In this document: in pieces, positions 10,384 to 15,068 of the stretch
Layout of the letters: the number at the start of each line of letters is the position of its first letter
Position numbering within the stretch: the first letter of the stretch is position 1
NCBI RefSeq assembly: GCF_028807635.1
Contig: NZ_JARBAX010000001.1
Location: 3,638,501 to 3,702,500, forward strand
Reading direction: 5' to 3'
Length of the DNA: 64,000 bases
Source: Streptomyces spiramyceticus
Lineage (GTDB): Bacteria > Actinomycetota > Actinomycetes > Streptomycetales > Streptomycetaceae
Notes under the pieces: model-generated
The model's input: only the letters and a program-made list of their open reading frames with translations
Database searches by the model: none
Told to the model about the DNA's origin: nothing
Translations under genes and position numbers: made by a program

Positions 10384-11076
10384 CTAACCCGCGGCCAGGC
10401 CACCGCCGCCGCCCGCCCGGACCAGTCCGGACTCGTACGCCAGTACCACCACCTGGACGCGATCCCGCAGGTTCAGCTTCGTCAGGATGCGGCCCACGTG
10501 CGTCTTGACCGTGGCCTCCGACAGGACCAGCCGTGCCGCGATCTCCCCGTTCGACAGCCCCTGCGCGACGAGCAGCATCACCTCGCGCTCACGGTCCGTC
10601 AGCCGCCCCAGCGCGCTGTTGACGGCTTGCGTCTCCTTGCCCGTGCTGGGCAGCAGCGGCGAGAAGCGGTCCAGCAGGCGCCGCGTCGTCGACGGCGCCA
10701 CGACCGCGTCGCCGCTGTGCACCGAGCGGATCGCGGCCAGCAGTTCGCCCGGCGGCACGTCCTTCAGCATGAAGCCGCTCGCCCCCGCCTTCAGCCCGGA
10801 GAAGGCGTACTCGTCCAGGTCGAACGTGGTCAGGATGAGGACCTTCGGCGCATCCGGCTCCGCGCAGATCCGCCGCGTCGCCTCGACCCCGTCCAGTTTC
10901 GGCATGCGTACGTCCATCAGGACCACGTCCACCGCCGCCGAGCGCAAGACCTCGATCGCCTCCGCCCCGTCGCCCGCCTCGGCGACCACCTCCATGTCCG
11001 GCTGAGCGGCCAGGACCATCCGGAAGCCGGTGCGCAGCAGCATCTGGTCGTCTACGAGCATCACGCGGATGGACAT
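10384..11076 (-). CDS. NarL/FixJ-family response regulator
   Basis: A 230-residue two-component regulator. The receiver domain (1-120) has the acidic pocket VDDQ (Asp9, Asp10) and phospho-acceptor Asp55 in VVLMDVRMPK, plus the conserved Lys in MLKDVPPGE. The C-terminal LuxR-type helix-turn-helix (about 150-215) has LTDREREVMLLVAQGLSNGEIA and the recognition helix LSEATVKTHVGRIL. It lies downstream of its cognate histidine kinase on the same strand, separated by a 76-bp spacer containing a 15-bp tandem duplication. The stimulus and regulon are unknown. Confidence 0.95.
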   Translation of the reverse strand: MSIRVMLVDDQMLLRTGFRMVLAAQPDMEVVAEAGDGAEAIEVLRSAAVDVVLMDVRMPKLDGVEATRRICAEPDAPKVLILTTFDLDEYAFSGLKAGASGFMLKDVPPGELLAAIRSVHSGDAVVAPSTTRRLLDRFSPLLPSTGKETQAVNSALGRLTDREREVMLLVAQGLSNGEIAARLVLSEATVKTHVGRILTKLNLRDRVQVVVLAYESGLVRAGGGGGLAAG

Positions 11077-11093
11077 GGAGAGGGTGACCTTTC

Positions 11094-11123
11094 GTCAGGC
11101 ACTCGGAAGTCAGGCACTCGGAA
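11094..11123. repeat. Perfect tandem duplication of a 15-bp unit between kinase and regulator genes
   Basis: GTCAGGCACTCGGAA occurs at 11094-11108 and again immediately at 11109-11123. It lies in the spacer upstream of the response-regulator gene (minus strand), close to where its ribosome-binding site must be. It may be a slippage product or a doubled binding site. Confidence 0.9.
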
Positions 11124-11152
11124 GAAATGGGCGGGTCGGTGGGCCGGGCGGA

Positions 11153-12355
11153 TCAGTGGGCCGGTTTCAAGGGAAGCAGTGCGCTGATCCGGAAGCCGCC
11201 GCCCGGCCGCGGCCCCGCGTCCAGCGTGCCGCCGACCATACCCACGCGCTCCCGCATGCCGATCAGCCCGTGACCCTGCCCGTCGGCCCCGCCGTCCTCG
11301 TACAGCTCGTGCGCCGCGCCCCGCCCGTCGTCCTCGACAAGCAGGCCGAGCCCGTCGTCGAAGTAGACCAGGCGTACGCTCGCGCCCGCGTCGGGACCGC
11401 CGTGCTTGCGCGTATTGGTGAGGGCTTCCTGCACGATGCGGTACGCCGTGAGCTCCACGCCGCTGGGCAGCGGCCGGGGCGTGCCCTCGACCTTGAAGTC
11501 GACGGTCAGCCCCGCGGTCCGTACCTGCTCGACGAGGTCCTCGATCTGCTCGACGTCGGGCTGCGGCACGTACTCGCCGCTCACCGCCTGCTCGCCGGTT
11601 CGCAGCACGCCCAGGAGGCGCCGCATCTCGGCGAGCGCCTGGCGCCCGGTCGTCGAGATGGTTTCCAGTGCCTGTTTGGCCTGGGCGGGGGAGGCGTCCA
11701 GGACGTACGCCGCGCCGTCCGCCTGCACCACCATCACCGAGACGTTGTGCGCGACGACATCGTGCAGCTCGCGGGCGATACGGGCCCGCTCGGCGGCGAC
11801 CGCCACCTTCGACTGCGCCTCGCGTTCCTTCTCCAGGCGCGCGGCGCGCTCCTCCAGCTCCGCGAAATACGCACGCCGGGTCCGCATCGAATCGCCCAGA
11901 ACCCATGCCAGTGCGAACGGCAGCGCCATGACGATCGAGAAGAAGATGGCCGGAAGGACCGTGCCGTCCTTGTCGGCCGGCCAGCGCAGTTGCGCCAGCG
12001 GAGCAGCGGCCAGGCCGCCGACGAGCGCGACGCGCGAGACCCAGCGTGGCCCGTCGCTCGCGGCGACGGTGTAGATGATGACGAGCATGGCCCAGTCGGC
12101 CGGGTTGACCTCGACGTCGAACGCGAGCTGGGCGACGCCCATCATGATCGCCAGCAGCAGCATTTTCTGCGGCGCGCGGCGGCGCAGCGCCACCACGAGA
12201 CAGAGCAGCGTAACGATCGGGATGGCCGCGATCCGCGGCTCGGTGCCCATCGTCGCCTGGACGGCCCACAGCATGGAGAACCCGAAGAGCATCACAGCCC
12301 AGAAGCTGTCGACGCTCGTCGGGTGTCTGCGGATGAAGTCGTAGAGGCGTTGCAC
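11153..12355 (-). CDS. HisKA_3-type sensor histidine kinase
   Basis: The likely start is GTG 12355 (MQRLYDFIRRHP), giving 400 residues; a TTG at 12379 would add eight. Four to six hydrophobic segments fill residues 15-155 with little extracellular material, suggesting sensing within or near the membrane. A short coiled coil leads to the dimerisation/phosphorylation site RELHDVVAH, with His198 as phospho-acceptor. The HATPase domain ends the protein (NTRKHGG, DDGRG, GHGLIGMRERV). It autophosphorylates and passes phosphate to the NarL-type regulator immediately downstream. It is divergent from the MidA-like methyltransferase gene. Confidence 0.93.
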   Translation of the reverse strand: MQRLYDFIRRHPTSVDSFWAVMLFGFSMLWAVQATMGTEPRIAAIPIVTLLCLVVALRRRAPQKMLLLAIMMGVAQLAFDVEVNPADWAMLVIIYTVAASDGPRWVSRVALVGGLAAAPLAQLRWPADKDGTVLPAIFFSIVMALPFALAWVLGDSMRTRRAYFAELEERAARLEKEREAQSKVAVAAERARIARELHDVVAHNVSVMVVQADGAAYVLDASPAQAKQALETISTTGRQALAEMRRLLGVLRTGEQAVSGEYVPQPDVEQIEDLVEQVRTAGLTVDFKVEGTPRPLPSGVELTAYRIVQEALTNTRKHGGPDAGASVRLVYFDDGLGLLVEDDGRGAAHELYEDGGADGQGHGLIGMRERVGMVGGTLDAGPRPGGGFRISALLPLKPAH

Positions 12356-12451
12356 GTAACCCAGCGTAGGGAAACCCAATAGGTGCAGGGGTCAACCGGA
12401 GGAGCGATCCGGTGGACCGGAGCCTACTCCCCAAGGTGGAGACTTGGTGCC

Positions 12452-13807
12452 GTGACGGATGAGTGGCAGGGGTGGCGGGAAGCGACGGAGGCCGCGCTGT
12501 ACGGGCCCGAAGGGTTCTACGTACGCCCCGGAGGGCCTGGTCCGGCAGGCCATTTCCGTACGTCGGTGCACGCGTCCCCGCTCTTCGCTTCGGCCGTCGC
12601 GCAGCTGCTGACGGAGGTCGACGACGCACTGGGGCAGCCGGACGAGCTGGCGCTGGTCGACATCGGCGCGGGCCGGGGTGAGCTGCTGACCGGCGTGCTG
12701 ACGGCGCTGCCGCCGGGCCTCTCGGCGCGGGTGCGGCCGTACGCGGTGGAACGGGCGCCCCGCCCGGCGGACCTGGACCCCCGCGTCGAGTGGCGGGCCG
12801 AGCCGCCGTCGGGCGTGAGCGGGCTGCTGTTCGCGAACGAGTGGCTGGACAACGTGCCGGTGGACGTCGCGGAGACGGACGCGGAGGGTACGGCGCGATA
12901 CGTGCTCGTACGGGCGACGGACGGCGAGGAACGTCTGGGCGATGAGGTGACGGGCGCGGACGCGGAGTGGCTGACGCGGTGGTGGCCGCTGGGGGCGGGT
13001 GCGGGTGCGGGTGCGGGCGCGGGCGCGGATGCGGACATGGGCGCGGGCGTGGATGCCGGCGCGGGGCCCGGCCAGGGCCCGTGGCAGGCGTACGAGACAG
13101 ATCCTGCTGAGGCCGCAGGACAGGGGCCGGGGCACGAGGCCATACGTGCGGAGCTGGGCCGGAAGCGCGGGGCGCGGCCCCTGCAGCCGGCTGGGCCGGA
13201 CCAAGGGCACGAGGCGGAGTCTGCGCAGCCTGCGGGCCTGTCGCAGGGGTACGAGGCAGACGCTGCGGAGGCCATAGGTCCGGGCGGGGGGTACATGGCC
13301 GAGCCCGCGCCGCCCGTCGGGTCGGCGCAGTGGGCCGCCGCCGGGCTGCGGGCCGAGATTGGGCGGCCCCGGGACCTCGCGTGGGCCGCCGCCGTTGCGA
13401 CGCTCGACGCGGGGCTCGCGGTTGCCGTGGACTACGCCCACTCCCGCGCGGCACGCCCGCCGTTCGGCTCGCTGACCGGGTTCCGTACGGGGCGCGAGGT
13501 ACGCCCCGTACCCGACGGAAGCTGCGACATCACCGCCCACGTGGCGCTGGACGCGTGCGCGCTTCCGGGGGCGGAACTGCTGACGCAGCGCGAGGCCCTG
13601 CACCGCCTCGGCGTAACGGCCGCGCGCCCACCGCTCGCACTGGCGAGTACGGATCCGGCGGCGTACGTACGGGCGCTCGCGTCGACGGGTGAAGCCGCCG
13701 AGCTGACGGCACGGGGCGGCCTGGGGGACTTCGGCTGGCTGATGCAGTGGGTGCCTTTCCCACCCGCCCGTCCGTCCAACGGGGGCAGGAGTGGGGGACG
13801 CCCCTAG
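12452..13807 (+). CDS. MidA/NDUFAF7-family SAM-dependent methyltransferase (COG1565) with repetitive insert
   Basis: GTG 12452, preceded by AAGGTGGAG, gives a 451-residue protein. The family motifs are clear: N-terminal [11 protein letters not shown], the SAM-binding strand [11 protein letters not shown], the signature [13 protein letters not shown] (family form N-E-x-x-D-x-x-P-V) and, in the C-terminal part, VDYAHSR...[11 protein letters not shown] and [10 protein letters not shown]. In mitochondria this family (NDUFAF7) dimethylates an arginine of the complex I subunit NDUFS2, the NuoD homologue. Here the gene sits immediately upstream of nuoD. An insert of about 110 residues (12991-13320), beginning with (GA)n and continuing as imperfect Q-G-x-E-A repeats, splits the domain and is not a family feature. 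The C-terminal codons run into a palindromic GC-rich sequence. Confidence 0.88.
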
Positions 13808-13925
13808 TGGCCGGCGCACCGCCGTCGGCGCCCGCGGCCGGCGCCGCGTCTGCGGGCGGGCTGCGGAAATGGCTTCCGCAGGAGCCCCCGCCCGCCCCGT
13901 ACGGCCCACGGGGGATACTGGCCGC

Positions 13926-15068
13926 ATGACGGAGACCACGGTCGGCATCGGCGGCGCGGCGGAGAGCACCGACATGGTGCTCAACATCGGCCCCCAGCAT
14001 CCCTCCACCCACGGCGTCCTCCGCCTCCGCCTGGTCCTCGACGGCGAGCGCATCCAGCACGCGGAGCCGGTGATCGGCTACATGCACCGGGGCGCGGAGA
14101 AGCTCTTCGAGGCGCGTGACTACCGCCAGATCGTGATGCTCGCGAACCGCCACGACTGGCTGTCCGCCTTCTCGAACGAGCTCGGCGTCGTCATGGCCGT
14201 CGAGCGGATGCTCGGCATGGAGGTCCCGGAGCGAGCGGTCTGGACCCGTACGCTTCTCGCCGAGCTCAACCGGGTCCTCAACCACCTGATGTTCCTCGGG
14301 TCGTACCCCCTTGAACTGGGCGGAATCACCCCGGTCTTCTACGCGTTCCGAGAGCGCGAGGAGCTCCAGGCCGTCATGGAGGAGGTCTCCGGCGGCCGCA
14401 TGCACTACATGTTCAACCGGGTCGGCGGCCTCAAGGAGGACCTGCCCGCAGGCTGGCTCGGCCGCGCCCGCGAGACCATCGCGGACGTCCGCTCCCGGAT
14501 GGACGTCTACGACAACCTCGTCCTCGGCAACGAGATCTTCCGGGGCCGTACGCGCGGGGTCGGCATCCTCTCGGCGGAGGCCGTGCACGCGTACGGCGTC
14601 AGCGGCCCCATCGCCCGTGCCTCCGGCGTCGACTTCGACCTGCGGCGCGACGAGCCGTACCTCGCGTACGGCGAACTCCAGGACACCCTCAAGGTCGCCA
14701 CCAGGACCGAGGGCGACTGCCTGGCCCGCTTCGAGATCCTCCTCGACCAGACACACAACGCGCTGGACATCGCGGATGCCTGCCTCGACCGGATGGCCGA
14801 CCTGCCGCCCGGTCCGATCAACCAGCGGCTGCCGAAGGTACTGAAGGCCCCGGAGGGCCACACGTACGCCTGGACCGAGAACCCGCTCGGCATCAACGGG
14901 TACTACCTGGTGTCGAAGGGCGAGAAGACGCCGTACCGCCTGAAGCTGCGCTCCGCGTCGTTCAACAACATCCAGGCGCTGACGGAGCTGCTGCCGGGGA
15001 CGCTGGTCGCGGACATGGTCGCGATCCTCGGATCGCTGTTCTTCGTCGTCGGCGACATCGACAAGTAG
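13926..15068 (+). CDS. nuoD2: Isolated NADH-quinone oxidoreductase subunit D paralogue (NuoD2)
   Basis: ATG 13926 gives 380 residues, full length for NuoD without a NuoC fusion. Family landmarks are [13 protein letters not shown] (His29, equivalent to quinone-site His38 of Thermus Nqo4), HRGAEK (Arg55), [20 protein letters not shown] and the C-terminus VGDIDK. No other nuo gene is nearby. Two positions at the quinone site differ from canonical NuoD: Trp78 replaces the quinone-binding tyrosine (Tyr87 in Thermus) and Glu130 replaces the conserved aspartate of LDLGAxTP. It may replace or supplement the NuoD of the main complex I, or serve another hydrogenase-like complex. It follows the MidA-like gene on the same strand after a 118-bp gap and ends 2 bp from the stop of the convergent DUF899 gene. 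Confidence 0.92.

Follow-up and report, generated by a model that had tools for sequence, protein, structure and literature searches.

The window analysed here is a stretch of 64,000 nucleotides from the 7.08 Mb genome of Streptomyces spiramyceticus. In it, two genes on the + strand, separated by a gap of 118 nt, encode a putative methyltransferase of the MidA/NDUFAF7 type and, downstream of it, a NuoD subunit of complex I. The features of the pair, in window coordinates, are as follows.

12452-13807, + strand: midA, 451 aa, GTG start, predicted NDUFAF7-type SAM-dependent methyltransferase (COG1565/PF02636; 51.5 bits to PF02636)
12665-12688, + strand: SAM-binding motif GAGRGELL, MidA residues 72-79, Gly74 and Gly76 being the same in all 19 MidAs aligned
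12836-12859, + strand: motif NEWLDNVP, MidA residues 129-136, with Glu130, Asp133 and Pro136 invariant in 19 MidAs
13004-13306, + strand: low-complexity insert, MidA residues 185-285, pLDDT <50, most of the aligned relatives lacking it or having a shorter one
13926-15068, + strand: nuoD2, 380 aa, ATG start, NuoD subunit (243 bits to PF00346)
14010-14012, + strand: His29 codon of NuoD2, equivalent by alignment to Thermus His38
14088-14090, + strand: Arg55 codon of NuoD2, equivalent by alignment to the dimethylated Arg85 of NDUFS2
14157-14159, + strand: Trp78 codon of NuoD2, aligned at the position of Thermus Nqo4 Tyr87

A search of the whole genome gave a single PF02636 match, the midA beside nuoD2, together with two NuoDs and two NuoBs. 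The nearest named relative of NuoD2 among the matches listed, from Streptomyces sp. ISL-98, is 99% identical. In Actinomycetes the midA-nuoD2 pair has a recurrent neighbourhood with folK/panC-like genes, the names of neighbouring genes being readings of the ORFs made without a family search. On the same reading, a divergent response regulator and sensor kinase lie just 5' of midA (window 10384-12382, - strand), and similar ORFs are also found close to midA or nuoD2 in several relatives.

MidA scores well above the PF02636 cut-off of 23.3 bits and had no match among the NCBIfam models. It carries both the GxGxG SAM motif and the NExLDxxP motif, with the key residues invariant in the 19 aligned members, and its GAGRGELL region aligns with the same region in 4f3n and 1zkd. 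A profile made from 19 relatives found three distinct sequences in the PDB at E <=0.001 (4f3n, 1zkd and 5ztz), all of them COG1565/DUF185/MidA proteins. The predicted model consists of a confident core, with pLDDT of at least 90 at 262 of the 451 residues, and a disordered insert. Foldseek matched this model to 4g67, 4f3n, 1zkd, 5zu0 and 5ztz (E 1e-15 to 3e-14, probability 1.00), and comparison with the COG1565/MidA crystal structures gave TM scores of 0.51-0.65 and rmsd values of 7-15, the disordered insert being counted in. By the available tests of sequence and predicted fold, MidA is a member of the COG1565 family. Its divergence is faster than that of NuoD2 (median identity 72% vs 92%), and both genes are under purifying selection, with median dN/dS values of 0.27 for midA and 0.10 for nuoD2 against 20 of the best 80 of 594 named loci. 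A decaying MidA was rejected on the dN/dS of 0.27.

NuoD2 exceeds the cut-offs of PF00346 (24 bits) and of NCBIfam NF004739 (383.5 bits, cut-off 360), and falls below that of TIGR01962 (390 bits, cut-off 459). It is thus a 49-kDa subunit by PF00346 and NF004739, and it also aligns with Thermus Nqo4. Identity as a hydrogenase large subunit was rejected, since the NiFeSe_Hases score of 19.9 bits is under the cut-off of 25.8 and the protein has two Cys and no CxxC. Arg55 aligns with the HRG of mitochondrial 49-kDa subunits and with the Thr of Thermus Nqo4. The positions and identities that the initial annotation had given for the two genes agree with the ORFs and the Pfam matches, and its description of intact family motifs in MidA and a conserved target arginine in NuoD2 is borne out by the residues invariant among the 19 MidAs and by the alignment at the NDUFS2 Arg85 site.

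His38 and Tyr87 in Thermus are quinone-site residues, Tyr87 of Nqo4 being presumably a quinone ligand. NuoD2 retains the His and has Trp for the Tyr, so that the pair is incomplete. The His29 site is mostly His, with Gln (L294, L295, L297), Thr (L296) or Asp in a few NuoDs. At the Trp78 position, 191 NuoD and NuoD-like proteins that were read have Trp in 153 cases, Tyr in 37 and Ala in one, and at the Arg55 site the same 191 have Arg in 174 and Thr in 17, the Thr proteins all being NuoD1. The proteins with Trp are all Arg-type; those with Tyr comprise 20 Arg-type and all 17 Thr-type proteins. The NuoD2-like proteins read have Trp throughout in place of the quinone-site Tyr87.

The main nuo operon encodes NuoD1, NuoB1 and a NuoF, the labels of its genes other than B, D and F being assigned by order and size. 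The target-site segment reads GYLHTGIEK in NuoD1 and GYMHRGAEK in NuoD2, so that the known target is present in NuoD2 and absent from NuoD1. The N2-proximal segment of the B subunit reads IVAGRVSQKM in NuoB1 and VVSGTVTDKM in NuoB2. NuoD1/NuoB1 are therefore Thr/Arg, as in Thermus, and NuoD2/NuoB2 are Arg/Thr, as in mitochondria. There are 94 readable loci with a single NuoD and a single NuoB, counted after 20 duplicate or overlapping loci had been dropped and with L177, which has two of each, excluded: 74 are Arg/Thr, 17 are Thr/Arg and three have Arg with Pro or Trp, and in none of the 94 is there Arg on both subunits or Thr on both. The 17 Thr-type NuoDs are the NuoD1 of this genome and those of 16 other genomes of the class, and the Thr-type NuoD1 genomes G418, G423 and G431 carry NuoD2 too.

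A second nuo operon lies ~190 kb from nuoD2, with the order A2 B2 C2 H2 I2 J2 K2 L2 M2 N2. A nuoD was looked for in this operon and not found, nuoC2 being followed directly by nuoH2. With reference sequences taken from the main operon, nuo2 genes A-C and H-N were recognised in the stretch (L082), A, I, J and K weakly at 61-69 bits, with D2 elsewhere; NuoF and NuoG gave no match in it. The initial annotation had called nuoD2 isolated, which holds for its position. It is not an orphan, a reading rejected because of this operon without any nuoD found, and NuoD2, instead of being a free paralogue, most likely serves the nuo2 complex as its D subunit. The distance between nuoD2 and nuo2 would suit a NuoD2 that stays outside the nuo2 complex, acting alone or exchanging into the main complex I, but such a role is highly improbable: a nuoD was looked for in the nuo2 operon and not found, the Thr of NuoB2 complements Arg55 while NuoB1 has Arg already, and NuoD2, NuoB2 and MidA are found together in 103 of the 117 genomes whose NuoD2 match reaches 56% identity or more (MidA in 114 and NuoB2-type in 104, G709 having been put in the NuoB2 list by hand at 62% identity).

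A survey of co-occurrence and adjacency, which the initial annotation had proposed as a check, bears directly on whether midA and nuoD2 belong together. Throughout it, NuoD2-type proteins were counted among the matches listed, down to E ~2e-75, and MidA at E <=3e-9. On this basis 150 of 394 class genomes have a NuoD2-type protein and 143 have MidA (160 if E 0.001 is used for the tally). Both are present in 134, NuoD2-type only in 16, MidA only in nine and neither in 235, the last class including genomes without any NuoD match (28 of the 394 had none). The two are discordant in 25 of the 394, and the Fisher p for their co-occurrence is 1.9e-74, uncorrected for kinship. Weak matches to the MidA profile in 17 more class genomes (E ~7e-6 to 8e-4) were excluded from MidA; a NuoD2-type protein was listed in none of these genomes. 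MidA is thus found in nine of the 244 genomes where no NuoD2-type was counted among the matches listed, or in 26 of 244 with the 17 weak matches. Of the 16 genomes with NuoD2-type only, 13 have relatives at 40-47% identity; in G408, G475 and G709 the identity is 66-73%, and these assemblies are 78, 77 and 93% complete. Among the nine with MidA only, G459, G415, G407, G483 and G397 are 72-93% complete and G453 is 94% complete, with NuoB2 present in G407 and G483, and the MidAs of G461, G527 and G661, from one genus with genomes 99-100% complete, are partial matches of ~95-109 bits.

Wherever MidA and a NuoD2-type protein (among the matches listed) are on the same contig, they lie within 15 kb of each other (128/128), and 60 pairs lie within 1 kb, distances being taken between match ends; in six further genomes the pair is on different contigs. 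The 60 close pairs have midA upstream on the same strand in 40, convergent in 18 and otherwise arranged in two. The best 80 of 594 named loci, 79 of them titled Streptomyces, have the Arg and the Trp in all, and MidA is present in every one, within the stretch in 77 and elsewhere in the genome in three. In these 77, midA is upstream of nuoD2 on the same strand in 32, downstream on the opposite strand in 35 and upstream on the opposite strand in 10, these classes being rough as they depend on ORF ends. The orientation variants amount to local inversions in which the two genes remain linked.

Five families picked for being mixed in this respect, with 140 genomes, show the same association, with both genes in 30, neither in 107, MidA only in three and NuoD2 only in none. 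In one genus (f7 g9), one genome has both and 11 have neither. Most of the discordant class genomes (22 of 25) lie outside the five picked families, for example in f77, f81, f102, f103, f105 and f106. Chance neighbours were rejected on the co-occurrence in the class together with the five-family counts. The initial annotation had held that the pairing would fail if adjacency were bound to this lineage and COG1565 proteins were as frequent without a NuoD paralogue; adjacency is wider than this, and MidA alone is rare. The gene-level support for a MidA-NuoD2 pairing is strong.

Across the phylum, PF02636 was found in 101 of 396 sampled genomes. The phylum loci were selected by MidA position, and so they show arrangements, not frequencies. 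In some other families midA lies 3' of an 11-gene nuo operon. Selecting other families for a same-strand MidA downstream gave 22 loci in which midA follows nuoN and no further nuo gene intervenes; the distance is <=250 nt in 17 of them and 0.8-6.6 kb in the other five, and NuoF and NuoG gave no match in these stretches. In 20 selected MidA-positive genomes, MidA and nuoD are on separate contigs. In f15, f50, f54 and f14, 18 loci were selected in which MidA shares the contig but is on the other strand; 17 of them have no nuoA-C or nuoH-N in the stretch, some of the stretches being short and L104 having NuoF/G-like matches further off. The surroundings of five of these 17 split loci (L106, L109, L111, L117 and L119) differ from those of the Actinomycetes loci. 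In a FastTree phylogeny of 179 NuoD sequences, the split NuoDs of f15, f50 and f54 and those of Actinomycetes form one clade with support of 1.0, so that the nuoD split was mostly one old event. The f14 split is ambiguous, because L113 has nuoC still beside nuoD.

Adjacency within Actinomycetes can be the inheritance of one old arrangement, and the linkage might then be inherited synteny and nothing else, with MidA acting on an unrelated substrate and the two genes kept or lost for other reasons. The recurring Actinomycetes neighbourhood of midA and nuoD2 would fit this, as would the single clade formed by the large split group in the NuoD tree. However, presence and absence track between the genera of a family and inside one genus (f7 g9), and the pair is found in other surroundings and 3' of nuo operons in other families, which makes synteny by itself a very unlikely explanation.

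The target arginine is not in itself a sign of a methyltransferase. Arg occupies the site in 39 of 39 phylum loci selected from genomes that gave no PF02636 match; just one of these loci has a piece of MidA, where its contig ends. The notion that Arg implies a writer was therefore rejected; Arg-type NuoD is common without MidA, and Arg alone predicts no writer. Among control genomes, PF02636 is present in Caulobacter, and also in Synechococcus and Haloferax, and was not found in E. coli or Thermus composti. According to the available part of Carroll 2013 (PMC3750175), the residue at this NuoD site is symmetric dimethyl-Arg65 in Paracoccus denitrificans Nqo4, an Arg left unmodified in E. coli, and a Thr in Thermus.

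These distributions leave room for a MidA that serves as an assembly chaperone for NuoD2, its methyltransferase activity lost or directed to another residue or subunit and Arg55 unmodified as in E. coli, where an Arg-type NuoD works in that state. Arg-type NuoDs without MidA in many lineages would agree with such a role, as would a change in the Streptomyces MidA rows, which read FRTSVHAS(P/A)LFA where L098 has FLTSPEVSPLFG, so that a Glu of some MidA members is lost. Against this, the SAM motif, NExLDxxP and the DxTxxV positions are retained, midA is under purifying selection and MidA is rare where only a Thr-type NuoD is expected. A purely chaperone-like MidA, or one with another target, is on this evidence unlikely.

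The preferred reading, with a probability of roughly 0.73, is that MidA dimethylates Arg55 of NuoD2 and is dedicated in this way to the assembly of the nuo2 complex, the reaction being ascribed by analogy with NDUFAF7. MidA would bind newly made NuoD2 and dimethylate Arg55, presumably in the symmetric form, and Arg55 would then come to lie beside cluster N2, carried by NuoB2. NuoD2 would combine with NuoA2-B2-C2-H2...N2, encoded ~190 kb off, to give an 11-subunit complex I without the N module, a composition suggested by the gene content and by the way in which Arg55 and the Thr of NuoB2 complement each other. MidA would not be needed by the main complex I, which has Arg on NuoB1 and Thr in NuoD1. 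Methylation of Arg55 would have its role in assembly. A dedicated writer-substrate couple apart from the main nuo operon, as originally suggested from the gene pair, gains support from the co-occurrence and from the Thr of NuoD1 and Arg of NuoB1, the reaction itself being argued from the family. Points that weigh against the preferred reading are the many Arg-type NuoDs without MidA, the 20 genomes with MidA and nuoD on separate contigs, the faster divergence of MidA, the partial MidA matches of G461, G527 and G661, the presence of PF02636 in Synechococcus and Haloferax, and the discordant class genomes outside the five picked families, which lower the confidence slightly.

A further idea is more tentative, at somewhat less than even odds. 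One cell may hold opposite solutions to the N2 arginine, one on NuoB1 and the other on a MidA-methylated NuoD2 with a Trp quinone site, and the relocation of nuoD together with its writer may make NuoD2 maturation the switch for nuo2 assembly.

In the human system, the pair is NDUFAF7 and Arg85 of NDUFS2 (Rhein 2013, PMC3829151, in the part available). The Streptomyces pair is like it in methyltransferase family and fold, in the HRG target segment and in the subunit concerned. It differs in being bacterial, in the linkage of the genes, in the presence of a second NuoD in the cell without the target Arg, and in a substrate that would belong to a complex I lacking the N module. Paracoccus Nqo4 is likewise a bacterial NuoD with the same site, dimethylated there; the enzyme in that case is alphaproteobacterial, and a paralogue pair is not discussed in the available part of that report. 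A second nuo cluster of Streptomyces, lacking the N module and with nuoD2 lying apart, has been described (PMC3765725, PMC8388888); the accessible portions of these papers make no mention of the methyltransferase, the Arg swap or the Trp replacement, and nuoC2 is unnamed in their nuo2 gene lists. Compared with the nuoABCDHIJKLMN complex I that lacks EFG, the gene set would be the same, the difference in Streptomyces being a nuoD that has left the operon and stands with midA. No treatment of a MidA-NuoD2 pair in actinobacteria was found in the open PMC literature, including by the names SCO3391 and SCO3392, which are presumably those of the S. coelicolor genes. MidA in Dictyostelium was reportedly the subject of work by Shahul Hameed in 2018.

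Arginine methylation of this kind has been studied mainly in mitochondria, and the present pair would extend it to Gram-positive bacteria. It also provides a built-in control, since one cell has a NuoD with the target residue and a NuoD without it, and one complex of the two should need the writer. The purpose of Arg85 methylation could thus be tested directly in a tractable bacterium that keeps its main complex I.

Some minor features of the nuo2 genes may be added. The nuoC2 gene (L036:1950-3080), between nuoB2 and nuoH2, has a long Ala/Pro-rich tail. NuoB2 (L036) reads PFAPGPRQ, compared with FRGSPRQ in NuoB1 and FRASPRQ in bovine PSST, and the arginine whose hydroxylation is known from mammals (PSST) seems, from this comparison, to be missing from NuoB2. 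Apart from that of the main operon, there is only one other 51-kDa match in the genome, a second NuoF-like domain at 1.80 Mb (G000:C1:1803332-1803817), ~2 Mb from nuo2.
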